33,718 bases of DNA from a virus. The notes beneath the pieces were generated by a model. That model had not been told where the DNA came from. It did no database searches and saw only the letters and a list, made by a program, of their open reading frames with translations. The position numbers and the translations under genes were made by a program. Below, one piece after another: positions 225 through 33,718 of this stretch (its first letter is position 1; each line of letters starts with the position of its first letter). Location: the IMG/VR virus record IMGVR_UViG_3300017752_000071, positions 1-33,718 of that record. One strand, given 5' to 3'.

Positions 225-1720
225 TGGATACTGCAGGCTTAACTAATCCTCTATTCTTTGTCGGTGTCGTTGAAAACATCGAAGATAAAAGGCACGAAGG
301 ACGTGTACAAGTTCGTGCGTTTGGCACACACGGTACAAATAAAGAAATCGAAACTCCAGATCTACCTTGGGCAATTTGTGTGCAAGGAAATTATGACCCA
401 AATAATCCACCACCCCCGCTAAATTCTTTTGTTTGGGGAGTGTTTATGGATGGTCGTAATGCTCAACACCCAATGATTTTAGGTTTAATACCTTCGCAAT
501 ATGTGGAAGAGCATGACCCTGCAACAGCAGGCTGGGGTGTCATTCCGGAAAATAATGGAGCAATCCAAGCAAAAGGAATGACTCCAAAAGATATAGGTTT
601 ACCACAACAATCTAGATTGGCAACTGGTGAAAACCTAAACGAAACTTATATTCCCACACAAGAATTAAATAGAGTTCACGACCAAAAGGTTGGAGGCGAA
701 TCTGATACCTGGGCAGAACCAGGCTCTGCATACGCTGCCAAATATCCATATAATAGAGTAATAGAAACAGGTACTCATAGTATTGAATTGGATGACTCGC
801 CGGGATCTGAACGAATTATGATTAACCATAAATCTGGTGCATATATTCAAATCGATGCCAAAGGTACAGTAACTGAACGTGCTGCAGCAGATAGATATGA
901 AATAAACATTGGCACAAAGCATGAGTCGTCTGGTCATTCGACAGTTACGGTCAATGGTAACGCGCATGTGTACGTGAAAGGTAATAAGACAGAAGAGATA
1001 GAAGGCGACTATCGTATGCTTGTGCATGGTAACGCGGAATTTGGTGTCGGTGGCCAAATGAATCTAAATGGTGGTGAACAAGTTCAAATCCGAGGCGGTG
1101 ATGTTAAAATTGACGCTAATGTAGGTGTATTAAATCTCTTCGGCAAAGAAAGTATTGTTGCTGACGGGGGTGAGCAAGTTATTGTCACAGGACAAAATGT
1201 GAATATTACATCGCTGCTTGATATGGAATTATATTCGACCCTTGGCATGAAATTTACATGTATTAATGATTTAACTGCAAGTAGTAATGATATTAATTTT
1301 AATGTTGGTTTTAAAGGCTTTAATATTTGGGGTATTGGTAATACAACAATTGATACACCGTTTGTTAAATCCATTGGTGTAGTGCAGGCTACTGCTGTAT
1401 CTTCCCTCAGAGGAGATTTTGCAACATTAGGTGCTCCATTACCAATTAGCTCAGCGCCGGGAAGTCCTTGTGCTCCTGGTCCTGGAAGAACACCTCCATT
1501 AAACATACCTTCAGGTCTATTCTTTACTTTACCAGAATTAAATTTTGCAATCCCTGCATTATTTGCTGGCTCTCAAACTAAAATGCCAGAACCACCATCC
1601 AAATCTACTAACATAATGCCGGGTGGTTATTTTGCAATGGGTTGGGCTGCTGGATATGTTTCTCCTATTGAAGATGAGGCAACTGATATTGTGAGTAAAA
1701 TTAAGGAGATATTGTTCTAA
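224..1720 (+). CDS. gp5: Baseplate spike protein, gp5/VgrG-like, without lysozyme domain
   Basis: This 498-aa protein has a gp5-type OB-fold at its N-terminus (about residues 8-95, with GVVENIED...GRVQVRAFG and DLPWAICVQG). A linker follows at about 95-175, then a VgrG/gp5-like region from YPYNRVIETGTHSIELDD. Five consecutive octads with the V/I-x-G pattern of the T4 gp5C triple-stranded beta-helix start at V243, V251, I259, V267 and V275; looser beta repeats continue to about 350. The Pro/Gly-rich C-terminus (about 405-498) probably forms or caps the tip, and no PAAR motif is visible. T4 gp5 carries a lysozyme domain between OB-fold and helix; here that space is only a short linker, so no muramidase is present. 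The downstream M15 gene may supply the wall-cleaving activity. The start ATG overlaps the upstream stop and the end overlaps the next ATG (TAATG). Confidence 0.88.
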   Translation: MDTAGLTNPLFFVGVVENIEDKRHEGRVQVRAFGTHGTNKEIETPDLPWAICVQGNYDPNNPPPPLNSFVWGVFMDGRNAQHPMILGLIPSQYVEEHDPATAGWGVIPENNGAIQAKGMTPKDIGLPQQSRLATGENLNETYIPTQELNRVHDQKVGGESDTWAEPGSAYAAKYPYNRVIETGTHSIELDDSPGSERIMINHKSGAYIQIDAKGTVTERAAADRYEINIGTKHESSGHSTVTVNGNAHVYVKGNKTEEIEGDYRMLVHGNAEFGVGGQMNLNGGEQVQIRGGDVKIDANVGVLNLFGKESIVADGGEQVIVTGQNVNITSLLDMELYSTLGMKFTCINDLTASSNDINFNVGFKGFNIWGIGNTTIDTPFVKSIGVVQATAVSSLRGDFATLGAPLPISSAPGSPCAPGPGRTPPLNIPSGLFFTLPELNFAIPALFAGSQTKMPEPPSKSTNIMPGGYFAMGWAAGYVSPIEDEATDIVSKIKEILF

Positions 1721-3267
1721 TGGCAACCTCGAATTGTATTGACGTAACTGACCAAGTCACAATGAATAAACTCGGACTTGGGCCGGGAGTTAATTTAAAT
1801 GATAAAGGCGAATATACCTTAAATCAGATTGATGTATTTGCAGCACAATTTATTGAGAATATGGATTCCGATAAGGAAGACAATCCGGTTGGAATTTTAT
1901 ACAATCAATATGGTGACGATTTATATAAAGCAAGCGATTATATTAATGCATTACAAAGTACCCTTACCGATGGTGATTATCCTTCTTTAGACAGGAGATG
2001 GTCAACTGGTAATATTACAATTGTTGAATTTGCAGATTTTATAAACTCTTATAACTATACACCAGCTGGTGTTTTAAATAGTGATTTAACAAAACTCGCC
2101 AGAACATTGGATTCATATTATGCTGATACATTTGATGAGAGTGCATTGGGTGGTTTCTGTGCATTAATGCCACAAATTTTTGGTCAAATCGATGCCTTCT
2201 TTACATTGGTTGGTCAAATAGAGGATGCAATTGCAGATACATTGGCGTTTATTAATAAAATTAGATCTTATGAATTCTTTTCAAAGGAAGCAGAAAAGCA
2301 ATTAGTTAAACAGCTTATAGAAGAACTTAAAAAGAAAGTTGGAGATGTAATTGACGATATTATCCAAGAGGTTCAGGACGCAATAGAAAACTTTAGTATT
2401 ACTGATATAATAGGTGATATAGAAACCTTTTATAATAAAAATATAGCAAAACCTGTAATGACAGCAGCGTCACAATCTTGTGCTTTCTTTACTGATGAAA
2501 ATAAAAAGACATTTAAGGAAAAGATAATTGCATTAATAGACTATTTTGTCAGTCTATTTGAAAGCCCTAATTTGGAAGCTATCCAAATGATGATTTCTCG
2601 TTTCTGTGCCTTGGTTTCTAATGTGGAAGCGTTGGTTCGCGACATTAAAAAGCCTTTAGACGATTACACATTGCGATTTACAACAATTACAAACAGACTT
2701 AAAACGATTTCAAACATTAATACATCGACCGCAATAAGAGCAGGAGCCATAAGATATTCTCCAGCTGTTCGGAAAGATAAAATAAATAGATTGGAGGCAC
2801 GCTGGACTGACCCTGGAGGAAGTAATTTCACACCGTCAGGCAACGCACCTCAAAATGTGCCAGAACCAACAGCTGCTGAATATGCTGATTTACCACCTTG
2901 TGGGCAAGTATTTAAGGGTGCTAATGACAAGATAAAACTTGAAGGCGATTGGATGGACGAAAAGGAAGGAGTTGGTATCTACGGATATACAAGAATCGAC
3001 CTTGATGTTAAAGTTTACCTAATGAGAGTTCAAGAAGAAATAGGTGGCACATTTACTATTAATTATGGTTGGACCAGTAAAGCTTATAATAAGAAATTAA
3101 AGGGCAATGAAAATAATGCTCATTTAAGCGGATTGGTTATAGATGTTAAAAAAGACATGGCCGATGTTGATGCATTTATAGATTCGGCACTTAAAAATGG
3201 ATTTAAATTCGCAAAGGAATATGATAAATCCATTCATTTAGATATAAGAGAGATACCAGGACAATGA
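1720..3267 (+). CDS. Tail-associated protein with C-terminal M15-type Zn peptidase domain
   Basis: This 515-aa protein has two parts. Residues 1-350 are acidic and mainly helical, with heptad-like stretches such as KQLVKQLIEELKKKVGDVID, and I recognise no family there. The last 80 residues look like a D-Ala-D-Ala carboxypeptidase/endopeptidase of family M15: W451-TSKAYNKKL resembles the usual 'SGYRSPAYN' segment, AHLSGLVIDV supplies His468 and Asp475, and SIHLDI supplies His506. These match the three metal ligands of the H-x(6)-D...H-x-D family pattern, although the residue two before the first His is Asn rather than the usual Ser. The likely role is cleavage of peptidoglycan peptide cross-links during injection, replacing the lysozyme missing from the neighbouring spike. 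It overlaps the spike gene by one base and gp25 by four (ATGA). The peptidase call is strong by motif; virion location is inferred from context. Confidence 0.78.
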   Translation: MATSNCIDVTDQVTMNKLGLGPGVNLNDKGEYTLNQIDVFAAQFIENMDSDKEDNPVGILYNQYGDDLYKASDYINALQSTLTDGDYPSLDRRWSTGNITIVEFADFINSYNYTPAGVLNSDLTKLARTLDSYYADTFDESALGGFCALMPQIFGQIDAFFTLVGQIEDAIADTLAFINKIRSYEFFSKEAEKQLVKQLIEELKKKVGDVIDDIIQEVQDAIENFSITDIIGDIETFYNKNIAKPVMTAASQSCAFFTDENKKTFKEKIIALIDYFVSLFESPNLEAIQMMISRFCALVSNVEALVRDIKKPLDDYTLRFTTITNRLKTISNINTSTAIRAGAIRYSPAVRKDKINRLEARWTDPGGSNFTPSGNAPQNVPEPTAAEYADLPPCGQVFKGANDKIKLEGDWMDEKEGVGIYGYTRIDLDVKVYLMRVQEEIGGTFTINYGWTSKAYNKKLKGNENNAHLSGLVIDVKKDMADVDAFIDSALKNGFKFAKEYDKSIHLDIREIPGQ

Positions 3268-8310: not shown

Positions 8311-9165
8311 ATGCCAACGATAACTATTACTTCAGACGGTGACCCTTATCCAGCTAAGGCTGGTCGTTCAACGTTAACGAATGACGGCACAACAGCTCGA
8401 GAAGGTTTTGGTGGTAATAACCAAATAACTGACCAAAATCATAATTTTGTATTTGAATATAGAGCAGGAACAAATACCTCCAATCCATCTCCTACAACTT
8501 TAGGTGCGATGGGTGTTGCAAATAATGGAGCAGTGTTATTTAATCCTAGCGCAGCCCCTGGCAATTTACCAGGAGGAAATCAAACTCCAAATTTTGGCTG
8601 GACTTTTAATGCTGTTTTTAATGAAGCGTCTTATGGTGTAGATGCTTGTGGAGGCCATCCTGAACAAAATGGTGAATATCATTATCACTCTGGTGCATTT
8701 TTAACAAATTGTTGGGACACAAAACTCTCTTCTGGAACTGCATATTATAATGATACCAATTTTAATGGGGATAATTTTAGACATACTGACGGACACAGCA
8801 AAGTATTAGGTTGGTGTTTTGACGGATATCCTTTATATGGCCCATACGGATATCAAACACCAGATGACTCAGAAACAACAGTGGTACAAATGTTATCCAG
8901 TTGGAGAACATTAGCAGCTGAAGGCTCAAATAGAGGCTTTACATATTCACAAATCCCAGCTGGGAGTTTTGTTCAAGATCACGAATACGTTTCCAGTTTA
9001 GGAACATTAGATGAATACAATGGCAGATTTTGCCTTACCCCAGATTACCCAGGCGGAACTTACGCATACTTTTTAACATTCGCCAGTGGCGATTTTAACA
9101 CTCCAGTATTCCCTTACATATTTGGTTTGAGTACAAAAGAGCAAAGAGATGTTACAGGGGCTTAA
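8311..9165 (+). CDS. YHYH-domain protein
   Basis: The 284-aa product matches the YHYH family pattern. It has the eponymous Y123-H-Y-H126 inside NGEYHYHSG, GWCFDGYPLYGPYG at about 167-179, and a C-terminal RFCLTPDYPGGTYAYFLTF. Several Cys (113, 134, 169 and one in RFCLTP) could pair or bind metal together with His116, His124 and His126. The family occurs in many bacteria and phages without a settled biochemical role. There is no signal peptide and no membrane segment. It starts one base after gp7 and is followed by a 38-base gap with a late promoter, so it closes the first transcription block. The location suggests a virion surface or baseplate-peripheral protein; that is inference. Family call is strong, function unknown. 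Confidence 0.82.
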   Translation: MPTITITSDGDPYPAKAGRSTLTNDGTTAREGFGGNNQITDQNHNFVFEYRAGTNTSNPSPTTLGAMGVANNGAVLFNPSAAPGNLPGGNQTPNFGWTFNAVFNEASYGVDACGGHPEQNGEYHYHSGAFLTNCWDTKLSSGTAYYNDTNFNGDNFRHTDGHSKVLGWCFDGYPLYGPYGYQTPDDSETTVVQMLSSWRTLAAEGSNRGFTYSQIPAGSFVQDHEYVSSLGTLDEYNGRFCLTPDYPGGTYAYFLTFASGDFNTPVFPYIFGLSTKEQRDVTGA

Positions 9166-9203: not shown

Positions 9204-10535
9204 ATGGCTAAACAAACAATTAATATCGGCGCATCTGCGAACGACGGGACAGGTGACCCGCTCAGAAATGCGTTTGATAAAGTAAACGACAATTTCAACG
9301 AAATATATTTTGGGGCAGGAAGTGGTAGTAGTATTACTAACTTCTTCGATTCAAATGGAAATTTGGATCTAGTAGGCAAGCCTCATAAAATAACATTTTT
9401 ATATTCTCAATATGCTGACCTACCTACAGCAAGCACATATCACGGTGCGGTCGCACATACACATGATACTGGGTCATTATATTATGCCCACGGTTCATGG
9501 AGAAAATTACTAGCTGATAATTCCCTTAATGATATCACAAGTTATACTGACCCTCTAAGCAAACATGTTTATTTAGCCAATATCACCAATACCGAAACAG
9601 CTGATTACGTCCTCAAAACAAATGCTGATGGTACATATACTTGGGCTGAAGGTGGCTCTGGTGGAAGTGGCGATGTTAACCAAAATGCATTTAGTTCTAT
9701 TGTAGTTGCTGGTTCATCAGATGTTGTGGCAGATAATGCGACAGACTCATTTACACTTATTGCTGGCTCAAATGTAACTCTTTCAACCAATGCAACCAAC
9801 GATGCAATTACAATTAATGCTTCAGCTGGTGGTGGAGGAAGTGGTACTGACCTTAATAGTTTATCAGGTGGAACACTTGATGTAGCAGCAGATAGCATTG
9901 GTTTTGTTGATGCTGATGATTCTAATAATTCTAAGAAAGACTCGATTGCTAATTTAGTTACAGCAATTGCAGGTACTAATATTACAGCTACAAACGGAGT
10001 GTTAAGTGTCGCGGCACCAGGTACATATTCAAATTCAGATGTTGATACTCATTTAAATACAAGTGCAGCAGGCACTAACGAAATTTTATCTTGGACTGGT
10101 TCTGATTATGCTTGGGTTGCTGACCAAACTGGTGGTGGTGGAGGTGGTTCTGGTGCGGTACGTGTTACTGAAACAGAAACTACATCTTCAGTCGCTAGTG
10201 GCTCGAGTGCTTCTGTTCAATTCGCTACACTAGGCAAATCCTTCTCATTACAAAAGGTTACTGTTGACAAGCAATGTTGGGTAAGAATATATTCTGATAC
10301 AGCAGCAAGGACAGCTGATGCAGGTCGATCACAAGGTACTGACCCAGCAGATGGTTCTGGTGTTATTGCAGAATTTATTGCAACAGGCTCTGGCTCTACA
10401 GAATTTAAAATCACTCCTGCTATTTCAGGTTGGCTTGATGATAGTGAAACCGAGGTTCCCGTAGCAATACAAAATAATAGTGGTTCTGCCGGAACCGTAG
10501 AATGTATAATACAAGCACTTAAATTAGAGTCTTAA
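9204..10535 (+). CDS. Tail fibre-like virion protein with NIGASANDGTGD N-terminal anchor
   Basis: This 443-aa protein opens with INIGASANDGTGDPLRNAF followed by DKVNDNFNEIYFG, an N-terminal segment shared by many phage fibre and adhesin proteins and thought to attach them to the virion. The middle is Ser/Thr/Ala/Gly-rich with three glycine runs (about 151-155, 210-213 and 310-316) that look like flexible linkers between beta segments. The last 125 residues (from GAVRVTETE) form a compact beta domain containing CWVRIYSDTAARTADAGR and GVIAEFI, a C-terminal domain I associate with structural proteins of marine phages. It is preceded by a good ribosome site (TTAGAGGAC) and an exact late promoter. 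Which baseplate or fibre position it occupies cannot be told. Confidence 0.65.
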   Translation: MAKQTINIGASANDGTGDPLRNAFDKVNDNFNEIYFGAGSGSSITNFFDSNGNLDLVGKPHKITFLYSQYADLPTASTYHGAVAHTHDTGSLYYAHGSWRKLLADNSLNDITSYTDPLSKHVYLANITNTETADYVLKTNADGTYTWAEGGSGGSGDVNQNAFSSIVVAGSSDVVADNATDSFTLIAGSNVTLSTNATNDAITINASAGGGGSGTDLNSLSGGTLDVAADSIGFVDADDSNNSKKDSIANLVTAIAGTNITATNGVLSVAAPGTYSNSDVDTHLNTSAAGTNEILSWTGSDYAWVADQTGGGGGGSGAVRVTETETTSSVASGSSASVQFATLGKSFSLQKVTVDKQCWVRIYSDTAARTADAGRSQGTDPADGSGVIAEFIATGSGSTEFKITPAISGWLDDSETEVPVAIQNNSGSAGTVECIIQALKLES

Positions 10536-10538
10536 TAT

Positions 10539-12770
10539 ATGAGTAAGAAACTTTATAACTTAGTTCTTCAAGAAGGCACAGATGAAGCAGCCTTTATAAG
10601 TACTGAAGCAGCTGGCATGGAAGTACATGATAACTTAAGTATGTTTGACATGCTACTTTGTATGAGACTGACAGAAGATGAAGCTGCAATACTAGAATCA
10701 AGTGAAAAAGTTTTAGAAATAGGACCGGAAAGAACTGTTATTGAAACGATATCATATCCTAGCTCAACTCCAAGGTATGAAACTCCAGCCGTAACATATA
10801 GAACAAAATTCAATCCTAGTAGTGGTGCTGGTGCAGACCATACTGGCTTAAATATGTTTTTTACAAGTGAATTTAATACAGCAGATGGAACACCACCTTT
10901 TGGATATTTTCAGGGTTCTGAATATCAATTTGATGATACTGTAAAAAGTAATTTCCTTGGTGAGTATGTTGATATAGTTGCTATTGAGGCGGGAGCTCCT
11001 GTCGCAGGTTATGCTGGAACTGAAAACCATGTTGATTTTGAAGAATGGGATAGTAACGATTCCAAATTTGTTGCTATGGATTGGTCATCTGTAAATAGTT
11101 CGGCTAGTTCTACAAGAAATAACCAGATAACAAATGGTTATGCTAATACCTTTTCAGCTCATGCAATTGGTGTATTAAGTGCGGCCGGTGGCAAATATTG
11201 TGGTTGGGGTAAAAAATCAACTCTGAGAGTTATGTATTTGTCTGATGGTGTCGCAACAGCATATAATACAGTTCTTACCTGGCACAATGCTAAGTCTGTT
11301 AACCCTAATACTGGTGTAAAAAATGCAACAGTAGTTACAGGTGCTTGGGGATTTAGTGGTGTTGAACATCAAAGGTTTTTTAAGATAGAAGATATTTCAG
11401 CTTTCGTAACATACGATAAGGATAGTGGAGTTTCAACAACCCACCAAAGACCGGGACCAACTAATCTTCCTGTGCAAACATTTAATTATACAGCAACTGC
11501 AACTGGCGCATCAGATTATTTGATGGCTGGTGGAGATAGGAATGGAAATTTAGTAGGTTCTCAACCAGACCCAGGTATTGAGTTGGTTGTAGGCGATACA
11601 CTCAACATTACAAATAATGCTAATGGCGGTCATCCAATGTACATTAAAACTGCTTCCACTACTGGAAGTGGTGACCAAGCATCAGGTGTTTCTGGTAACG
11701 GAACTGTAAATATATCCTGGACTCCATCATCGGCAGGAACTTATTATTATATTTGTGAATTCCATGGAAGTATGGTTGGAACAATTACAGTTGTTGAACA
11801 AATTGCAGATGGTTGGGAAGATGATTATTCAGTATTCGCAGACAATTTAGCAATACCTAGAGTTATTTTAGATACAAACGCGCCAACAATAGATAAATGG
11901 ATGATTTCCATACCTGACCAAACTAGATATACAACATTTGATACTATAATGTCTAATTACGCTTCGGCTGGTGGCATATATCATTTTAAATCTGCCGGTA
12001 ATAATTCTCATGTTGGGGTAAGTCCAGAAGACCCAAGACATAATAATCAGATTACTGTTGACGCAGGAAGTACATATGTCAGCAATTCACTAGACGGCAA
12101 TGGGTACAATGGTTTTAGTTCATCAACTCTGGGTGGTAGTACAACATATTATGTAAATAGGAATGAGATTGATGGTGGTCCTAACCAATTTACAATTGCT
12201 GCATGCCAACAAGATGATGTAAATAGACTATTGGATGATTATAGCAATCGAGGACCTATGTGTGATTTTGCTGCTTATGGTGCATATACTTGGACAAGCT
12301 ATCCGACTGGTACTTATTCAGATGGCCAATGGGGATATTTCAGTGGAACAAGTTGTGCCGCTCCTGTAGCTGCAGGTTGTGCCACTATATTTTTAGAATG
12401 GTATATCACACAAAAAGGAGTTTGGCCAACAATGGCTCAGTTAAAAGAGTTAATGGTAAATTCCGCAAAAGAAAATTTAATAGGAGAGGACTTAATTAAT
12501 TTCTCTAGCATACCAACAGCTGATGATATCACCTCAAGTAAATTATATAACTCTAATGAAGTAAATAGAATTAAAGACGGTGATTCTCAAAACGGCGGTG
12601 CAGATTTAACAGAATTATACGGAACTCCACCTTTAAGAGTACATATTCCTTGGGGTATACGAATGGGAAGCGGCAAATATATTGCTGGTGGTACCGAACA
12701 AACAAGTTATAAAAGACGACCTACATCAGGCTCAGTTTGGCCTCGAAGAAAAGTAACCTTTTCTTCCTAA
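10539..12770 (+). CDS. Subtilisin-like serine protease with an inserted cupredoxin domain
   Basis: In this 743-aa protein, residues 1-80 (MSKKLYNLVLQEG...TEDEAAILESSEKVLEIGPE) resemble an inhibitory propeptide. The subtilase core shows VDIVAIEAG at 144-152 where the catalytic Asp would be (Glu150 here), SAHAIGVLSAAGG with His208, SAGNNSH with oxyanion Asn488, and GTSCAAPVAAG with nucleophile Ser605. Between His208 and Asn488, about residues 307-418, lies a cupredoxin-like domain with His365, Cys406, His409 and Met412; the C-x2-H-x2-M spacing equals that of amicyanin. There is no signal peptide or membrane segment. It starts three bases after the fibre-like gene, so is probably co-expressed and virion-associated. 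A role in processing virion proteins or digesting the host surface is inference. It could also be an inactive adhesive fold, given the Asp-to-Glu change. Subtilase and cupredoxin calls are strong by motif. Confidence 0.82.
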   Translation: MSKKLYNLVLQEGTDEAAFISTEAAGMEVHDNLSMFDMLLCMRLTEDEAAILESSEKVLEIGPERTVIETISYPSSTPRYETPAVTYRTKFNPSSGAGADHTGLNMFFTSEFNTADGTPPFGYFQGSEYQFDDTVKSNFLGEYVDIVAIEAGAPVAGYAGTENHVDFEEWDSNDSKFVAMDWSSVNSSASSTRNNQITNGYANTFSAHAIGVLSAAGGKYCGWGKKSTLRVMYLSDGVATAYNTVLTWHNAKSVNPNTGVKNATVVTGAWGFSGVEHQRFFKIEDISAFVTYDKDSGVSTTHQRPGPTNLPVQTFNYTATATGASDYLMAGGDRNGNLVGSQPDPGIELVVGDTLNITNNANGGHPMYIKTASTTGSGDQASGVSGNGTVNISWTPSSAGTYYYICEFHGSMVGTITVVEQIADGWEDDYSVFADNLAIPRVILDTNAPTIDKWMISIPDQTRYTTFDTIMSNYASAGGIYHFKSAGNNSHVGVSPEDPRHNNQITVDAGSTYVSNSLDGNGYNGFSSSTLGGSTTYYVNRNEIDGGPNQFTIAACQQDDVNRLLDDYSNRGPMCDFAAYGAYTWTSYPTGTYSDGQWGYFSGTSCAAPVAAGCATIFLEWYITQKGVWPTMAQLKELMVNSAKENLIGEDLINFSSIPTADDITSSKLYNSNEVNRIKDGDSQNGGADLTELYGTPPLRVHIPWGIRMGSGKYIAGGTEQTSYKRRPTSGSVWPRRKVTFSS
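11457..11793 (+). other. Cupredoxin (type 1 copper) domain nested in the subtilase
   Basis: This segment encodes about residues 307-418 of the protease. It has the order of a small blue copper protein: a beta-rich lead, GDTLNITNNANGGHPMYI with His365, SWTPSSAGTYYYICEFH with Cys406 and His409, then Met412 and a final TITVV strand. The C-x2-H-x2-M spacing matches amicyanin and is shorter than plastocyanin's C-x2-H-x4-M. All four ligands expected for a type 1 copper centre are present. Copper binding itself is inferred. Confidence 0.75.
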
Positions 12771-12832: not shown

Positions 12833-14473
12833 ATGGCAGAAATATTAAGTAATAGTTTAAAAAGCGACACGACCAGGCTATTTTTGTCTGATATAAACAG
12901 CAACCAAGATTTTTATATGTTCGTATCCTCGGTTGATACGTTTGACCCTAATGATACTCTCGTATCAAAAATGAGTTTTAAAGAAAAAACATTATTCGGC
13001 AAGAAAATTGCATCAAGTGATATACATTTTTGTATTCCTTATTATCCTTGGCAGGTAGGCCAGGTATATACTGAATATGATGATACAGTGGATTTGGAAG
13101 GTAAAAACTTTTATGCTGTTGTAGGTCCAACTCAAAATGATACTGGTGATTATAGAATTTATAAATGTTTAGACAACAATAATGGTTCGACAGTTTCAAA
13201 CCCACCAAATTATAATTCAACAACAACAAATCAATTATATAAAACAGCTGATGGTTATGTATGGAAATACATGTACAGACTGAGTGATTTGGAATTTGAA
13301 GCATATAATGCTTTAGGATTTATTCCTGTTGTTGGTATGACAGCAAACAATGCAGTAATTCAACCATCTGACGCCGGTGGTTCTACAATTTCAGATGTTA
13401 TTGTATCGAATCCAACAATTAATAATGGATATACTATTGAGGAAGGAAGATTAAATGCTAGTCCAACAGGTGATAAACTTTCGATTGTAGCTGATTCAGG
13501 TTATAATTTTAGTCCAATTACAAATTATTATACTGGTCAATATATCTACACAACAAATTCAAATGGTGTTTCAAGATTATTTGAAATCACCTATTATTTC
13601 TACGATAGCAATACCGATGAAATTGAGATAAGGGTAGGCGCAGACCTCATAACAGGTGCAGCAGGCCCAACTCTTGCTGGTGTAAGTAATAATGCAAGTA
13701 TTACAATCTTTCCAAAGGTTGAAATTAAGGGAGACGGTACTGGTGCAGTAGCTATTCCAAATATTGTTGATGGACAAATAGTCAATATTACAATTTTGCA
13801 ACAAGGTTCCGGCTACCATAATGTTACAGCACAAATTATTGACCCCGTCTTTGATTTCGATCCGGAAGATGCTACGACAACAGATATCAGAGCTATTGTA
13901 AGAGCAGTAATGTCGCCTGATGGTGGACACGGAACTAATCTGATTGACGAATTTAAATGTAAAAACTTTAGTCTGTATGGCTATATTTCGGCTGCAGATA
14001 ATACAAACATTGGGGCAGTTAATACATACTCTGCAGTAGGAGTTGTAAGAACACCCTCATTTGCAAACACAGCGCCAGATGTTTTTGATAACCGAATCGC
14101 GGTGGTCACTAATGACTATGCAAAGGTTACAGCAAATAATACTATAACGCAACTTAATACCGACAACGAAATTATATTCTCTGCGAGGGTTCATGAAGTT
14201 GATGAAACAGCAAACACAATTTATTTAGCAGAATATATGGGACCATACCAGAATTATGCCAATACTGGAAACGGAGATATTTCATTGGATATAACTTTAC
14301 CATTTAGAAATGAAACAGGTCAAGTAATTTCAATAAATACACCTATAGCAGATAATATTACAGTTTCAAATTACATTCAAAGGACAGGCGAAGTGTACTT
14401 TATGGAAGATTTCTTTCCACTTGCACGTACAGACCTTTCTAGAGAAGAATTTAAGTTTGTATTGGAATTTTAA
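12833..14473 (+). CDS. gp8: Baseplate wedge protein gp8, enlarged
   Basis: This 546-aa protein has the landmarks of T4 gp8 in order: RIYKCLD at 108-114 (T4 VYRCLD), ADGYVWKYMYRL at 139-150 (T4 GDGYVWEYLFEI), and the C-terminal TGEVYFMEDFFPLARTDLS from 518 (T4 SGEMIYMENRPPI), ending in a short aromatic strand. T4 gp8 has 334 residues, so about 200 are inserted, mostly between 165 and 470. The insert is beta-rich with motifs such as GDGTGA and GSGYHNVTAQI, like modules in phage adhesins. gp8 dimers sit on the wedge periphery and bind gp7 and gp10. The ATG lies just after a TAACC sequence with only a weak ribosome site. It follows the largest intergenic gap, which contains a probable late promoter. 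Confidence 0.87.
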   Translation: MAEILSNSLKSDTTRLFLSDINSNQDFYMFVSSVDTFDPNDTLVSKMSFKEKTLFGKKIASSDIHFCIPYYPWQVGQVYTEYDDTVDLEGKNFYAVVGPTQNDTGDYRIYKCLDNNNGSTVSNPPNYNSTTTNQLYKTADGYVWKYMYRLSDLEFEAYNALGFIPVVGMTANNAVIQPSDAGGSTISDVIVSNPTINNGYTIEEGRLNASPTGDKLSIVADSGYNFSPITNYYTGQYIYTTNSNGVSRLFEITYYFYDSNTDEIEIRVGADLITGAAGPTLAGVSNNASITIFPKVEIKGDGTGAVAIPNIVDGQIVNITILQQGSGYHNVTAQIIDPVFDFDPEDATTTDIRAIVRAVMSPDGGHGTNLIDEFKCKNFSLYGYISAADNTNIGAVNTYSAVGVVRTPSFANTAPDVFDNRIAVVTNDYAKVTANNTITQLNTDNEIIFSARVHEVDETANTIYLAEYMGPYQNYANTGNGDISLDITLPFRNETGQVISINTPIADNITVSNYIQRTGEVYFMEDFFPLARTDLSREEFKFVLEF

Positions 14474-21304: not shown

Positions 21305-24300
21305 ATGGCAAAAATTTCAGAACTAGGTGCAATATCAGGCGCTAATACCAGGTCAGAAGACTTATTGGTTATCGTTAACCTTGTTCAGGGTGACGACGGC
21401 ACCAAAAATATTACAAGAAAAGAACTTGTACAGGCAATCCAGTATGAGGAATTTGATCGTATAAACATTACTGGCGGAACTATTTCCGGCGTCGTAATGC
21501 GTGACTCGCGAATAGACAACGTAGTAATTGACAATTCAGATATCGAAGATACAACCTTTGTAAGAGGTAGTATTGATAATACTGACATTACAAATTCCAC
21601 AGCCAATAATATTAGCATTACTCAATCTGACTTTATCAATGGTGAGATCTTTAATGGTACTGCAAATAATGTAACCATCACTCAATCCGAATTCCTAAAC
21701 GGTACTGTAAATAACACAATTATTACAAGTTCAGAATTTAATGATGGAACAATAGCAGATTCCACTGGTAATAATGTTATACTTACAAATTCAGAACTAA
21801 ATGATTCTACAGCAAACAATGTTGTCATTGAAAATTCAGAGTTCAATAACGGTACAGCCAATACTGTTGTTATGGTTAACTCAGAATTTAATGATGGTAT
21901 AGTAAATAATTCAGTAATTGTTAATTCAGTAATTAATGATTCTACTGGTAATAATGTTGTACTTACAAATTCAGAACTAAATGACTCTACTGGTAACAAT
22001 AGTGTATTCACAAGTTCAGAGTTTAATCAAGGAACAATTAATGATTCTGCCTTCCTAGATGGCACAGTTAATAATACAATTATTACTAATTCTGAATTCA
22101 ACGATGGTACAGTTAATAACACAATTATTACCTCATCTGAATTTAATGATGGTACTGGAAATAATGTAGTACTTACAAATTCAACCATTGACGATTCCTT
22201 ATTTACAGATGGTACAATATCTAATACTGATTTCCAAGGTACAATGCAAGATGTTGTAGCTACCGATATGACAATCAGAAGTTCATCTGCTGATGGACTC
22301 TCCTCAAATAATTCAAGCTTTGATAATGGTACAATGGCCGGGTCTGTATTCTCTGGTGGTACCATTGATAATTCTAAACTTGTTGACTTTGACATGGAAC
22401 TCAATAACGAGTTCGAACCACCACTTGATGAAGAAAGTTACTTTGCAATTCGTAACGAAAAAACTGGTGATACTGAACAAATTAACTTTGCTCAACTCTA
22501 TGATGAAGTTTCCAAAAAGACAGCCCAGGCACTTAAAGTTAATGTAGATGCTGCATCTGGTGATGATGCAAATCCAGGTACAATGTTACAACCTGTCAGA
22601 ACATTGGAAAGAGCTTTTGAACTCTGTTTGGAAAAAGCAGGTGGAGATTTAAACAGAAACGCTATTAATAACGCGGTTCATATTTCTGTTGGTCCTGGAA
22701 CATATTATACAAAAGGTAATCTTATGTTACCGGATGACTGTTCTTGTACTTCTACTGCTGGTCAGTATGCAACAGTTATTGAATTGCTTCCTGGATACGA
22801 AAACAATAACGGAATCTTAGTTGGTTCTGGTGGTTATGTTCAAGGATTTGGTTATCAGAACTTTAAAGTTGATAACTTTGATTTCCCAGAAGGTGGATTC
22901 GCGATTGCTTATCGACCTGGTGCCAAACTATTACGTTCACCTTACTTAAGAGATAGTACTCAGTTATCTAACTTCTTACGTCAAGATGTTGAACCACCTC
23001 TTAATCCTTATAACTCAAAGGGAACACTTGCTGATTTAGGCCGACAATTCTATGTTGACCCATCTTATACTGGTACATTTGCTGTTGATGATGAAATTAA
23101 ATTTAGTTCTGGTGCTGTAGGTTTTATCACTTATGTTGATAGTCTTGCAACCAATAATGAGATATATGTAAGAAACCTTAAAAACAATCAAGGATTTGCT
23201 GTTGGTGATACAATGACAGCAGAATCCGGTGGTGTTGCTGTTATAACCGAAATCGGTATTGATGATTTCCCTAACAGACAGGTAGGCCGTGGTGGTGGTT
23301 GTGTACTCGCGGACAGAAGAGTACTAGATACTGATTCACTATATACCTACGTATTATGTTTTGGTTTCACACCTCGTACTCAAAATGGTATAGGTTATGT
23401 TGCTAGAGACGGAGCTGGTGTTAACGGTATTGGTTCTCTATCAATTTTTGTAAGATGTGCATTCTACGCCTTAAATGGTGGTCAGATGACATTGAACAAC
23501 TCAGGTACTCAGTTCGGTGATATTTCAATGAGGGCGAAAGGTTCTACAATCTTTATGCAACCTAGAAATACTACTGCTAACATTATCGGTAACACGGCAT
23601 TCGCTGATACGATTGATACAAATGCTGATTCAATTATTGATGATATGGTTGATTACCTATCTGCAAATACTGCACAAGGTGGCTTAGACTACACATTATA
23701 TGATTCAGTTAAATGTGAACGCGACAGTGGTATTATTTTAGATGGTGTTGGATACGATATTGCATTAGACACTAACTACTGGTCCAGACTTGCTGGTATT
23801 TCATATCGTTCCCCAATAAGTTCTAAAGTTATAGGTGAACAGCTTGATGCAACAATAGGTGCAAACGAATATCTCCAAGGTAGAGTTGAAGCTCTATTTG
23901 GTGACTCTAATCCTGATATTGTTGAACGTGCAAATACCTCATTCCAAGAACTTTATAACGTTGTAGAGTATGGTGAAGAAAACATCAATCCTATTATCTG
24001 GAGAGATACAGGGAATCAAAACTATACTAACGCTAGAGAGTTATTACAAGACAATAAAGAATTAATCCAAGATGAACTTATAGATTGGATTGAAAACAAT
24101 GGCGAATTTTATGCTTATAATAGTAAATCTTGCCGAAGAGATGTACAAGATTATATTTTACCAGCTGTCGAAAATGACATGTTACTGGACACAAACTATA
24201 ATTCAGTTACAGCAGGACGCGCATATTATATGGCAACTGCAAAAACAGTTTTGGAAAATCAAAACAATGAAACTGTTGCTGCATACAGAAGATTAAAAGA

Positions 24301-27300
24301 TCAAACCAATGAACTTGTTGACGGTGATTCATATCTTGCTACACAAAGACTTGATGAAGGTTTTGATGAAATTTTATCTATCCTTGAAAATAAAGGAACA
24401 CAGTTTACTCCACCAGCTGCCACTTATGACCCTTCAACCGGTTTATCAGTTATCACACTAAGCACAAGTACAAAGTTTACACCAAGTACCGCTACTTATG
24501 ACCCTGCTACAGGAATTATGGTGGCAACTATTGGAGCTCACGAATTAACAACTGACGACCACATTTGGTTCAAACCAGGTGGAATGACATTCAGTTGTGA
24601 TACAGGTTCTGGTGTACAAAATCATGCTGTACCTGAAGCTCATCACCCATATTATAATACTCCTTGCCCAATTACAGCTGTAACTGAAACTACTGTTACG
24701 TTAAATGTTGGTAAAGGTGGTCCGACAGGACAACAGGCTCATACCTTTGTATCAGCTGTTAAAAATGCACTTGCTTCTGGACACGGTTTAGGAGTTGGTA
24801 GAAAAGTATTATTAAAAACTGGTGGTCTTATATTTACATGTGACAGAGATAATAATGTCGCAAAAACTGGATACCCAAGAGCTTCTGACCCAGCTGCTGG
24901 TACTCCAATAGATGTAATCGGTGCAAATGAAACTAAGATTACAGTTAATGTTGGTAAATCTGTACTGATAGACGAACATACATTTGTTGAGGCATTACCA
25001 AATTCGGTTTCAGTATTAGGTTCAGCACTAAGATTTAGTGATGACGCCGGTATTGCTGCTGATAATATTAATGCTAGAAAACAATTACAAGCTAATAAAG
25101 AGTTTATACAAGAACATATGCTCGGTTATATTGACTATAACTTCTTCAGATATGATTCTGATAAGTGTCGTAGAGATGTAACGAAATATATTCTTCCTGC
25201 AGTCGAAAGAGATATATTGACAGGAACAAATTATAATGCAATCCAAACAGGTCTTGCTTATAGAAGTGGAACAACTCTAGCTGATAACGTAATTAATGAC
25301 CAGTTGGTAGAAACTTCTGGCGCAATTACAGAATTAAAAACAAGAGTTAATCTCAATAATACAGAATCTGGTTTTACTGTAACAGATGCTACTTATGATC
25401 CTGCAACAGGACGATTTGAGGCCACAATCGGCGCTCATACAATGGCGGTAGGCGATTATATAAAATTTGCAGATGAAGGTATTACAATGAGTTGTGATAT
25501 GGGAAGTGGTCAACAGAACCACACTTCACCACAAGCTCACCACCCTTATTATAGAAAACCTTGTCCAATTACAAGTGTAACTGATACGACTATTGTAATG
25601 AATGTTGGCGATGGCGGAACTGGCCAATACCCACATACATTTGTTTCAGCTGTTGCTAATGCAATTACTCCTGAAAAAGGTATCGGTTTAAGTTATACTC
25701 CAACAACTGCTGATTATGACCCAGTCACTGGTAAATTTACGGCTGAAATTGGACCACATACACTTCAACCAGGCGATATGTTAAAATTCACTGCTGGTGG
25801 TGTTACATTTAGTTGTGATACAGGAAGTGGTCCACAGAATGACTCTGTTCCAGCTGTTGGACATCCATATTATAACCACCCATGTCCTATTGAATCAGTA
25901 ACAAGAACTTCAGTTTCAATGTTTGTTGGAACCGGTGGAACTAATGCTCATACATTTGTATCTGCCTTAGATGATGCTCTAACTCACATGGTAAGTATTG
26001 ACGATAATGCTTCTGGATTCAGAAGTAATGAATCATTCGATGAAATACTTACAATCATGAATGACAGAAATAAGTTATACTCAACAACAAATGCTACTTA
26101 TGACCCAGCTGGTGGTATGACAGAATTAACAATTGGCACGCATGATTTCCAAATTGGAGACCAGATATTAATTGCAGCTGATAGTTTAACATTTACTTGT
26201 GCGACCGATGGTGACGCAACAGAACATACATACCCAACCACAACAATAAGTACTTTCTCTCCGACAGACGCGACTTATGTACCATCTACTGGTGTATTTA
26301 CAGCAACAATCGGAACTCATAAATTACAAATTGGTGATTTAGTAGAAATTGCTCCATACTCATTTGCATTTACTTGTGAAATGGACGACAATGCTACTGA
26401 ACATCTAGCGCCTGAACCACATCACCCATTCTATAAAAAGAAGGTTGCTATAACAGGTATTACCAGTAATACAATCACAATGAATGTTGGTTCTGTTGTA
26501 AATGGTGGCGGAGTACACACATTTGTATCTGCACTACCTAACAGTATTGAAGGTGAAAGACAACACCCTGCTTACAAGAAACCAGTTACGATTGCTTCAA
26601 AAACAGCAACAACGATTTCTGTTAATGTAGGACCTTCAACTGACACATCAGTTCATACATATGTAAGTTCAACAGCTGACAATATTAAACCAGCTAAATA
26701 TACATCTGCATACACACCAACAACTGCTACTTATGACCCTGCAACTGGTGTCTTTGTTGCAACGATTGGTAATGGCCATAATCTTGTGGCTGGTGATTAT
26801 GTAGAAATTAAACCTGAATCTATTGTATTCACTTGTGCTCTTGATGGTAATGCTACAGAACATGCTGTACCTGAAGCTCATCACCCATTCTATAGAGTAC
26901 CGGTAATGATTAGTAGTGTTACTGCTGATACAATTACAATGAACGTTGGTACTGGACCTGGTGGAGCTCACACATTTGTAAGTGCAAGTGTTGGTGCAAT
27001 TGATTCTGATGCACTTGTCTTTACGGATCCGGCTTCATATGTAAGTTACTTTACTCCAACAACTGCTACATTTGTACCGGCAACTGGCGACAGTGTCATT
27101 ACTTTACCTGCAGGACATGGTTTAACAACAGATGATTATATTGAGTTCGCTCCATATTCATTCACATTTACTTGTGCACAAGATGGTGACGCAACAGAAC
27201 ATTCATATCCAAGAAAAGGTGACGTAAATTACAGAACACCTATGGCAATTACTGCTGTAAATGGTAATGATGTAACAGTTAACCTAGGTGCTTCAACTGG

Positions 27301-30300
27301 TGGTCTCCACACATTTGTAAGTGTTGAAAAGGATGCTGTATCTAAAGTCACTTATAATTCTCAAGGCCAATATGCTAGAGAACAATTACAGAAAAACAAA
27401 ACATTCCTACAAGAAGAAGTTACATCTTACTTAGACAGTCAATACTTTGTATTTAATGGCGAAAAGTGTAGCAGAGACACAGGCTTTATATTAGATGCAG
27501 TACGCAGAGATGTTGCAACTGGTTCTAATTATAATTCAGTCTTTATGGGTCTAGGATATCGCATTGGAACTAAAGGTTCAAATGAGGTTATTACAAATCA
27601 ATTAACAGAAACTGTAGGCGCAATTAACTACCTTAAAGGTCGTGTTGCTGCTGAGGCAAGTGTTACAGGAACTGCATTAACTCGTGCAAATGCTGCGTTT
27701 GATGAAATCGTTGACATTATGTCAAATGGTACTGCAAATGCTGATGCTCTTGTTTACGGAACAGATGCAAGTGTAAGTGTTAATCACACTATAGGCTCAA
27801 ATGCTTTAATTAATAATAGGGCATTTATTGTTGCTGAGGTTACAGCTTACATCGCTGACACATTCCCAACATTAACATATAATGTTGCAAGTTGTGAAAG
27901 AGATACAGGTTATCTTATAGATGCAATTGTTTGGGATTTAAGATTCGGTTACAATACTGCTGCAATTAACTTTGCAAGACTATACTTTGAGAATGCAATT
28001 TCTACATTGCCAGAGGACCAAAAACTTCCAACAGCTAAGACTTGGGAACATATTGCAAATGTTGCGTATGATATCGTAAGAGATATAGCTGTTACTCCTA
28101 CAACAGGAAATGCTGCATCACAAGATGTATCATTAACAGATGCTGGTGTTGAAGTTGGTGAGGCTGCAAGGGCAGGTATTAATGTTACTACTCAAATTAT
28201 TAGAGATGATAACTTACAATCACTTCCTGCAATTAATGAAGGTAATGTTGAAGCTGCAATGGCTGGTGCTGTTACTACCATCGATGGTATAACTGAAGGT
28301 TTACAATCAGGTGTCATTGACTTCCTTAAAGATGAGTATAATGGATTACCTTATGCTGTTGAGACATGTAAACGTGATGTTGGTCTTATGGTTGATGCAG
28401 TATCTCGTGATATTGAATACGGTGGTAATGAGAATACATTAGAAGTGTTTGATTACTACTTCAGAAGATTCGATTCTCAATCAGCTGATTATGAACAACA
28501 GCGTTCAATCAACGTATTGCCACTTGAGGTAAAAGGACAGTTCAAAACACTATCTAATTACGACGATAACGCCAATGTTTCTGGTTTAAGAGAAGCAATT
28601 AATGTTCTTCCTTATGACCAACGTGGCCCAACAAGAGATGCATTTGCTCATTTAGCTGATGTCGCTGAAAAGGTTGTTAAAGAAGTTAATCATTCAACTA
28701 GTTTCAATAAATTCACTCCAACGAATGCTACTTATGATCCGGCAACTGGTGTGTTCACTGCAACAATCGGTACTCACGACCTTGTAAAAGGTGACAGTGT
28801 TTGGTTGAAACCTGAAGGATTTACATTTAGCTGTGATATGGGTGGCGGTGCTGCTAACCATACTTCACCTCAAGCACATCATCCGTTCTATAACAAACCA
28901 GTTACAATTACTGAAACAACATCTACTGTTATTACAATGAATGTTGGTGGTGGTGGTTCTGGTCAATATCCACATACTTTTGTTTCAGCTGACGCTCAAT
29001 CAATTAGTGAAGGACCATATCAAAATGTTGATGGAACAGCTGCTGATGCTACAACAGGTACAACAGTTCACGATTTATTAAATCTTATTGCCAACCTGGT
29101 TGATGATACTAATATAGAAACTGCTCAATTACCAACATTGGTTAAGGCTTCATACGATCCAAATAGAACTCTTGCTAGAAAACAGCTACAAAGAAACAGA
29201 GACTTTATTATTGAAGAGGTTCAAGGTTATATTAAGGACAGATATTATGTCTTTGATGGCGACAAATGTAAGGCTGACCTAGGATTTATCCTTGACGCAG
29301 TTAAAACTGATGTGCTAACAGGTTCTAATTATAATTCCATATACGCAGGACTTGCTTATAATATTGGAACAACTAATACAACTAGAGTATTAACTGAACA
29401 ATTAACAGAAACAGTTTCTGGTATTAATTATGCTAAGAAACTTTGTATTGAAGCTGTAACTGACGGTAGTGCAAAATTAAAAGTTGAACAAAGTTTTGAT
29501 GAAATCATAGATATTATGACTAATGGTAGAGGGGCTGCTGATGTAATTAATTACACTGGAACTGCCTCAAATAATACTAGGATTAGTGGTAGATCTCAAT
29601 TACAAAACAACAAGGCATTCTTACAGGCTGAAATAACAGCTTGGCTTGCTGCAAACAGACCTTCACATTCCTACGATGTAGCAAAATGTGAAAGAGATAC
29701 AGGTTATATGATTGATGCAATATCATTTGATACTCAGCATCAAGGTAACTTTGCGACCATAAACTTTGCTAAATTGTATTTTGAAAATGCAATATTGGTT
29801 GGTTTACCTGCGGATCAAGTTGAACCGACAGTAGCTGCATATTTACACTTAGGTAATTGTGCAAACCTTATTGTTCAAGATACAGATATTGCTGGATTAA
29901 AATCATCTGGTAATGCTGCATCCCAGGACTTTAGTGCTGCCTCTGCTGGTGCTCCTGTAGGTAATGAGGTTCGAGGATTATTTAATATTGTTGCTGATGC
30001 AATTGAAGCTGGAACAATGTTATTAAGTCCTCCAGTTGCTATGCCAACTCTTACTACATATTCTGCAGAAAATCAAGCTTCATTCGGTGAAATTGAAAAT
30101 ACTAAATCTACAGCTCAAAATGGTGTATTATCTCACCTTGCTAAATACTTTGAGGTATTACCATATAGTGAAGAGAAGTGCAGAAGAGATACTGGCTACA
30201 TTGTTGATGCCATATCACACGATATCCAATATGGTGGTAATGCTGCAACAGTACAAACAGCTGGTATGTATTTTGAAAATGCTGTAAATACTGGTTTACA

Positions 30301-32981: not shown

Positions 32982-33718
32982 ATGTCAAGTAGATTTGGAA
33001 CCCTTTCAGGTAAGAACCTTGTTATCGGTCACGGTATTCCGCAGACGTTTCCTATTCAGTTGGACCCAGCCCCGTTTGAAGGTGCTTTGGTTTATGCCGA
33101 TAACGGAGAATTAAGATATTCCGACGGTACAAACTGGCTCACAACTGGAACAGGCCCACAAGGTCTCCAAGGTACAACTGGTTCCCAGGGAACACAAGGT
33201 CTCCAAGGTGATTATGGACCTGGTTTTACAATTATTGGTGCTGTGCCAGATGTCAATGTCGATCCACCAAATGACGAACAACTTACTCTTAATAATGCCT
33301 TTCCTGCAGCAGTTGTGGGCGATGGTGTTATTGATAATACAGATGATGAGTTATGGATTTATGATGGTGCGACTTGGGTAAATATTGGTTCATTTAGAGG
33401 TGTTCAAGGTTTTACTGGTATACAAGGTACTCAAGGTGTTCAAGGAACAATTGGTAACGAAGGTATCCAGGGCGAAAGAGGTTTTAGAGGTTTCCAAGGA
33501 GAAGCTGGCCCACAAGGTACTCAAGGTGTACAGGGTGATTTAGGTATACAAGGTTTACAAGGCCGAAGAGGACCACAAGGTGTTCAAGGCGTACAGGGTG
33601 ATTTAGGTATACAAGGTATCCAAGGCTTACAAGGTATTCAAGGACCTCAAGCATTCCAGGGTGTTCAAGGTACAGACGGTATTCAAGGTTTACAAGGTTA
33701 TAACGGTGATGATGCTGG
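32982..33718 (+). CDS. Collagen-like fibre protein, N-terminal part (runs off window end)
   Basis: The frame is open from ATG 32982 to the window end (245 complete codons), and the 3' end is missing. Residues 1-57 form a small domain ([14 protein letters not shown]...[19 protein letters not shown]). A short collagen-like stretch (from Gly58, [13 protein letters not shown]) follows. A second globular insert (about 82-139) contains [16 protein letters not shown], resembling the first. A long Gly-x-y stretch runs from Gly140 to the end with Gln dominating the third position ([12 protein letters not shown]). The triplet pattern breaks once, at GPQAFQG (221-227). Collagen-like segments form trimeric rods in phage fibres. 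The start has a strong AGGAG ribosome site. The receptor-binding end must lie downstream. Confidence 0.8.
33399..33718 (+). repeat. Collagen-like Gly-x-Gln triplet repeat
   Basis: A near-continuous series of Gly-x-y codon triplets, mostly GGT-xxx-CAA, begins at Gly140 and continues past the window end. The block [10 protein letters not shown] occurs twice in close succession (near 33529 and 33592), a sign of recent internal duplication. A shorter stretch of the same type lies at 33153-33220. Confidence 0.85.

Follow-up and report, generated by a model that had tools for sequence, protein, structure and literature searches.

The window analyzed here, a virus record of 33,718 bases, holds a T4-like baseplate cluster that encodes a hub/lysozyme-like protein, a putative peptidase, a short putative gp25-like protein (a label resting on gene position), gp6, a wedge protein, a YHYH protein, a fibre with a T4 gp9/10 N-terminal domain, a subtilase, a wedge subunit, and large structural proteins. 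Its gp6-like protein is nearest to those of Sinorhizobium phages phiN3 and phiM12 (40%), with pelagiphage HTVC008M at 32%. The fibre–subtilase–wedge gene order is kept among related loci, and the subtilase is encoded amid baseplate wedge genes with conserved neighbours, as a baseplate component would be (Table 1). The C-terminal ∼100 residues of this fibre recur at the loci of distant phage subtilases too, which suggests that this segment is a candidate docking domain for the protease.

Table 1. Features of the subtilase locus in window coordinates
Feature	Position	Strand	Basis or remark
Upstream fibre with T4 gp9/10 N-terminal domain	9204..10535	+	Often the cupredoxin carrier in relatives whose subtilase is module-free
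Upstream fibre, C-terminal ∼100 residues	10227..10532	+	Candidate docking domain for the protease
Subtilase with nested cupredoxin, 743 aa	10539..12770	+	Intact ORF; AlphaFold2 and fold matches
Residues 1–70, likely subtilase propeptide (I9-like)	10539..10748	+	AlphaFold2 secondary structure (beta-alpha-beta-beta-alpha-beta) and fold match
Glu150, at the catalytic-Asp position (subtilisin D32)	10986..10988	+	
His208, catalytic His (H64)	11160..11162	+	
ATVVTGAWG strand, residues 263–271, counterpart of the subtilisin S125-L126-G127 S1-pocket wall	11325..11351	+	Expanded loop follows
Cupredoxin module, residues 309–421	11463..11801	+	Profile, AlphaFold2, Foldseek
His365, predicted copper ligand 1	11631..11633	+	Amicyanin alignment, invariance
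Cys406, predicted copper ligand 2	11754..11756	+	Amicyanin alignment, invariance
His409, predicted copper ligand 3	11763..11765	+	Amicyanin alignment, invariance
Met412, predicted copper ligand 4	11772..11774	+	Amicyanin alignment, invariance
Asn488, oxyanion-hole Asn (N155)	12000..12002	+	
Ser605, nucleophile (S221), in GTSCAAP	12351..12353	+	
Baseplate wedge subunit (phrog_438), directly downstream of the subtilase	12833..14473	+	Conserved neighbour

Elsewhere in the window, the YHYH protein (PF14240, 2e-38) lies within the baseplate cluster at 8311–9165, and a protein at 1720–3267 with a weak C-terminal Peptidase_M15_3 match is possibly a tail endolysin. A 3726-residue protein (21305–32485) begins with pentapeptide repeats and also contains about ten repeats built around C-x-R-D plus several of the form HHP-[YF]-Y, and an open frame that leaves the window end (32982–33718) carries collagen-like G-x-Q-G repeats.

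Judged by its predicted fold and the Pfam matches of its relatives, the 743-residue protein is a subtilase with a variant catalytic triad. The whole-protein AlphaFold2 model (pLDDT 76.9, pTM 0.75) was matched by Foldseek to subtilases and cupredoxins separately, the subtilase matches including 1s2n (TMt 0.65) and 3whi (0.63). Searched as a single sequence against Pfam, the window protein gave no Peptidase_S8 match; 14 of 33 relatives do match that family (best 3.6e-13), and the family profile searched against the PDB finds the subtilase SubHal (5fax, 4e-6) and amicyanin (4.7e-4), each in the expected region. The ORF translation shows that a sequence-only reading of this DNA had correctly placed His208, Asn488, G603-T604-S605-C606-A607-A608-P609, and the four residues His365, Cys406, His409, and Met412. 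H208, N488, and S605 are present in all full-length family members in the alignment, and the His, the Asn, and the Ser of GTS-x-A-x-P follow one another in the usual order within the predicted subtilisin fold.

The catalytic Asp is replaced. Every family member covering that position has Glu there, which the sequence-only reading had overlooked, within AIEAG where subtilisin has VIDSG; an H-x-D motif like the HPD of subtilisin follows, and distant phage subtilases retain Asp. Equivalences to subtilisin (Asp32 and the others) refer to the subtilisin BPN' sequence. Also missed earlier was the N-terminal segment, whose model matches propeptide-containing structures, namely pro-subtilisin and CspB. 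Pfam returned no I9 match for residues 1–70 of the window protein, so it is the model that points to a propeptide here.

The cupredoxin module lies between the catalytic His and Asn, in the loop after the ATVVTGAWG strand, a loop that is already enlarged in other phage subtilases. Among close relatives, this module-bearing loop and residues 501–560 are the fast-changing parts of the scaffold. AlphaFold2 confidence drops near both module junctions, suggesting flexible linkers.

Several lines of evidence identify the fold. The window protein alone scores 17.8 bits against Copper-bind (E = 0.0044), below the Pfam cut-off, while 12 of 33 relatives match that family (best 6e-7), and a profile of the module matches amicyanin at 2.7e-6 with Cys-x2-His-x2-Met and the upstream His in register. 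Modeled in isolation (pLDDT 89.7, pTM 0.83), the module is a Greek-key beta sandwich whose listed PDB matches in Foldseek, namely rusticyanin (4.5e-6), plastocyanin, copper nitrite reductases, laccases, and factor VIII, are all cupredoxin folds; the nearest virus structure model is the S-CAM1 tail fibre. A generic Ig-like domain is rejected by the amicyanin profile alignment and by these cupredoxin-only matches. Structure prediction thus assigns the inner segment to cupredoxins and the remainder to subtilases, and the proposal that a complete amicyanin-type cupredoxin is nested in the subtilase, not appended to it, is borne out by profiles, predicted folds, and the family alignment.

The His, Cys, His, and Met of a type-1 copper site occupy the positions expected from the amicyanin profile alignment in 25 of 25 module clusters (<65% identity; mean pairwise identity 37%), which span subtilases, fibres, wedge proteins, and other tail proteins. 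These four ligands are among just seven invariant columns across the clusters, far beyond chance at such divergence, and in one module (L093) the second His and the Met stand one residue further apart. This conservation is strong evidence for selection on the metal site. Convergence of the ligands within the module is expected from the amicyanin alignment together with the fold match, and the module would accordingly be predicted to bind type-1 copper.

The comparison across related contigs, which are fragments, indicates that the module is a mobile part that has been gained, lost, and swapped repeatedly. It occupies the window's site in 40 of 65 family proteins (39 by alignment and L107 by profile) and is absent there in the other 25. 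One pair is L068 and L103, whose DNA is nearly identical save for the presence or absence of the module and whose proteins are ∼97% identical; compensating changes do not cluster around the module junction. In a second pair, L006 and L008, the scaffolds are 91% alike and the modules 40%; here the adjoining loop residues 263–300 and 426–460 are altered too, so some coupling between module and scaffold is possible. On the scaffold tree, 10 changes among the states none, type A, and type B are needed, against a minimum of two.

Placement varies as well. One relative (L106) carries an additional module in the interval from the catalytic Glu to the His, and the same interval in the subtilase of cultured cyanophage S-CAM1 (L045:2080-4335, HQ634177) holds a circularly permuted cupredoxin that keeps all four ligands; in it the strand bearing Cys, His, and Met, normally the last, has become the first. 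As a separate observation, some members of the subtilase family (L007:862-4029, L101:4001-6802, and L117:407-3235) carry a different insert of ∼300 residues after window residue 113, with a conserved E-H-x-F-H-T-x-H motif and no Pfam match.

Where the subtilase is module-free, a neighbouring gene tends to carry the module. With S-CAM1 set aside, each of the 19 module-free loci in which the upstream gene is complete has one nearby, 14 in the upstream fibre and five in the wedge gene above, and a second copy occurs upstream in 7 of 28 module-bearing loci. When either neighbour is counted, this trade-off has a Fisher p of 1e-7 unthinned for kinship and 0.007 after thinning near relatives; for the immediately upstream gene only, significance is lost after thinning at 80% identity (p = 0.44). 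A rule of at least one module per baseplate is, on these gene comparisons, a good lead. Using tblastn, we found such modules in 130 phage records, and among the matches listed they are not named as copper domains.

Several known proteins resemble parts of this architecture. The S-CAM1 tail fiber protein (AGH26742.1; phrog_15006) shares the scaffold family, the Glu at the acid position, and the type of upstream fibre C-terminus, but it lacks a module at the window's site and has the permuted cupredoxin instead. The subtilases of S-H9-1, S-CAM4, and ACG-2014e/j, annotated as "subtilisin-like serine protease" or hypothetical, carry a homologous module (41–47% identical), and S-H9-1 and S-CAM4 have the same upstream fibre C-terminal domain as the window locus; in these phages, however, the module is appended C-terminally, as in the distant relative L039, and the catalytic acid is Asp. 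An unannotated ORF of marine virus AG-345-F15 (MH319749, L052) resembles the window protein in having its module nested in the His–Asn interval, near that same loop, but differs in its distant scaffold and in the Asp at the acid position. Amicyanin, plastocyanin, and rusticyanin share the fold and ligand set of the module, and the Cys-x2-His-x2-Met spacing is that of amicyanin; they are stand-alone electron carriers, whereas the module is an insert in a tail protein, with identity of ∼20%. Plant subtilases and C5a peptidase likewise nest an accessory beta insert, the PA domain, in the catalytic domain, but that domain has a different fold and is usually inserted between Asn and Ser rather than in the His–Asn interval. 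Accessory beta domains also occur as Ig-like and carbohydrate-binding modules of phage virions, but without a copper site (PMC6669499).

Two simpler origins are rejected. The architecture is not an assembly artefact, since it recurs on many contigs from different metagenomes; two metagenome contigs encode a protein >99% identical to the window protein. Nor is the module a host plastocyanin acquired as a metabolic gene, being a domain of tail proteins and not a stand-alone gene.

The sequence-only reading had raised the idea that copper or redox state affects folding or activity of the protease, and an intramolecular switch, in which copper loading or redox state gates or stabilises the enzyme, would suit a module that interrupts the chain between His and Asn, on the loop that follows the S1-pocket strand. 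The joint change of module and neighbouring loop residues between L006 and L008 and the corresponding placement in AG-345-F15 are in its favour. Yet the same protease occurs without the module in L103 and other module-free members, like scaffolds bear modules sharing merely 40% identity, the module is C-terminal in S-H9-1, S-CAM4, and L039, and lower AlphaFold2 confidence near both junctions suggests flexible linkers. Because the module is absent, replaced, or on other baseplate proteins in close relatives, control of the protease is not supported as a general role, and we consider such a switch unlikely.

Another idea, which we rate as quite improbable, is that tail copper acts as a lure, engaging a host metal-uptake or copper-handling protein as a copper version of the Ferrojan horse. 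The invariant ligands and the location among genes of the adsorption apparatus fit this idea, and for iron the idea has already been put forward in ocean phages (Bonnain et al. 2016, as cited in PMC10892097); against it, no receptor is known, and when the iron idea was tested with Vi01-like phages, iron-uptake mutants were infected similarly (PMC10892097). That the module is a beta-sandwich decoration that has kept the cupredoxin fold but no metal, acting like phage Ig-like domains, would agree with its being mobile, swapped, probably flexibly linked, and present in many tail contexts, but full retention of the ligand set across 25 of 25 divergent clusters would not be expected without metal, and we rate this reading as unlikely.

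What we favour, with reasonable though incomplete confidence, is that the module serves the virion as an accessory domain, bearing a type-1 copper site and carried on a tail protease, and is not an on-off switch of that protease; the sequence-only reading had offered a virion accessory domain as its alternative, and loss, exchange, and placement on other baseplate proteins support it. The gene would then encode a baseplate or fibre subtilase from a marine T4-like phage. This enzyme would have Glu-His-Ser as its triad and probably a propeptide, and its family-specific loop past the S1-pocket strand bears the complete amicyanin-type cupredoxin. The protease may be docked on the upstream fibre through the conserved C-terminal domain of that fibre, and its putative role is probably to cut a host surface protein or to mature the fibre; both protease activity and virion location are what we infer for the window protein. 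The cupredoxin would be an exchangeable, surface-exposed accessory domain serving the whole tail tip, in host-surface contact or in local copper or redox chemistry.

Blue-copper sites are known as cellular electron carriers. A bolder extension of the accessory-domain reading, and one we regard as a long shot, is that a redox-active type-1 copper centre is near-obligatory at the tail tip of marine T4-like phages, on any of several baseplate proteins, and that adsorption or the triggering of infection involves copper or electron transfer at the host surface.

Subtilases, cupredoxins, and phage Ig-like and carbohydrate-binding modules are already known; subscription papers aside, we found no description of cupredoxin, blue copper, or plastocyanin-like domains in phage tails, virions, or subtilases. 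A search of bacterial and archaeal genomes found no relative within the limits of the pattern used. That tail proteins of marine phages share a mobile cupredoxin whose ligands are fully conserved, and that public records leave it unannotated, raises the question of whether phage virions carry copper, and why; naturally occurring pairs that differ in having or lacking the module allow a direct test.
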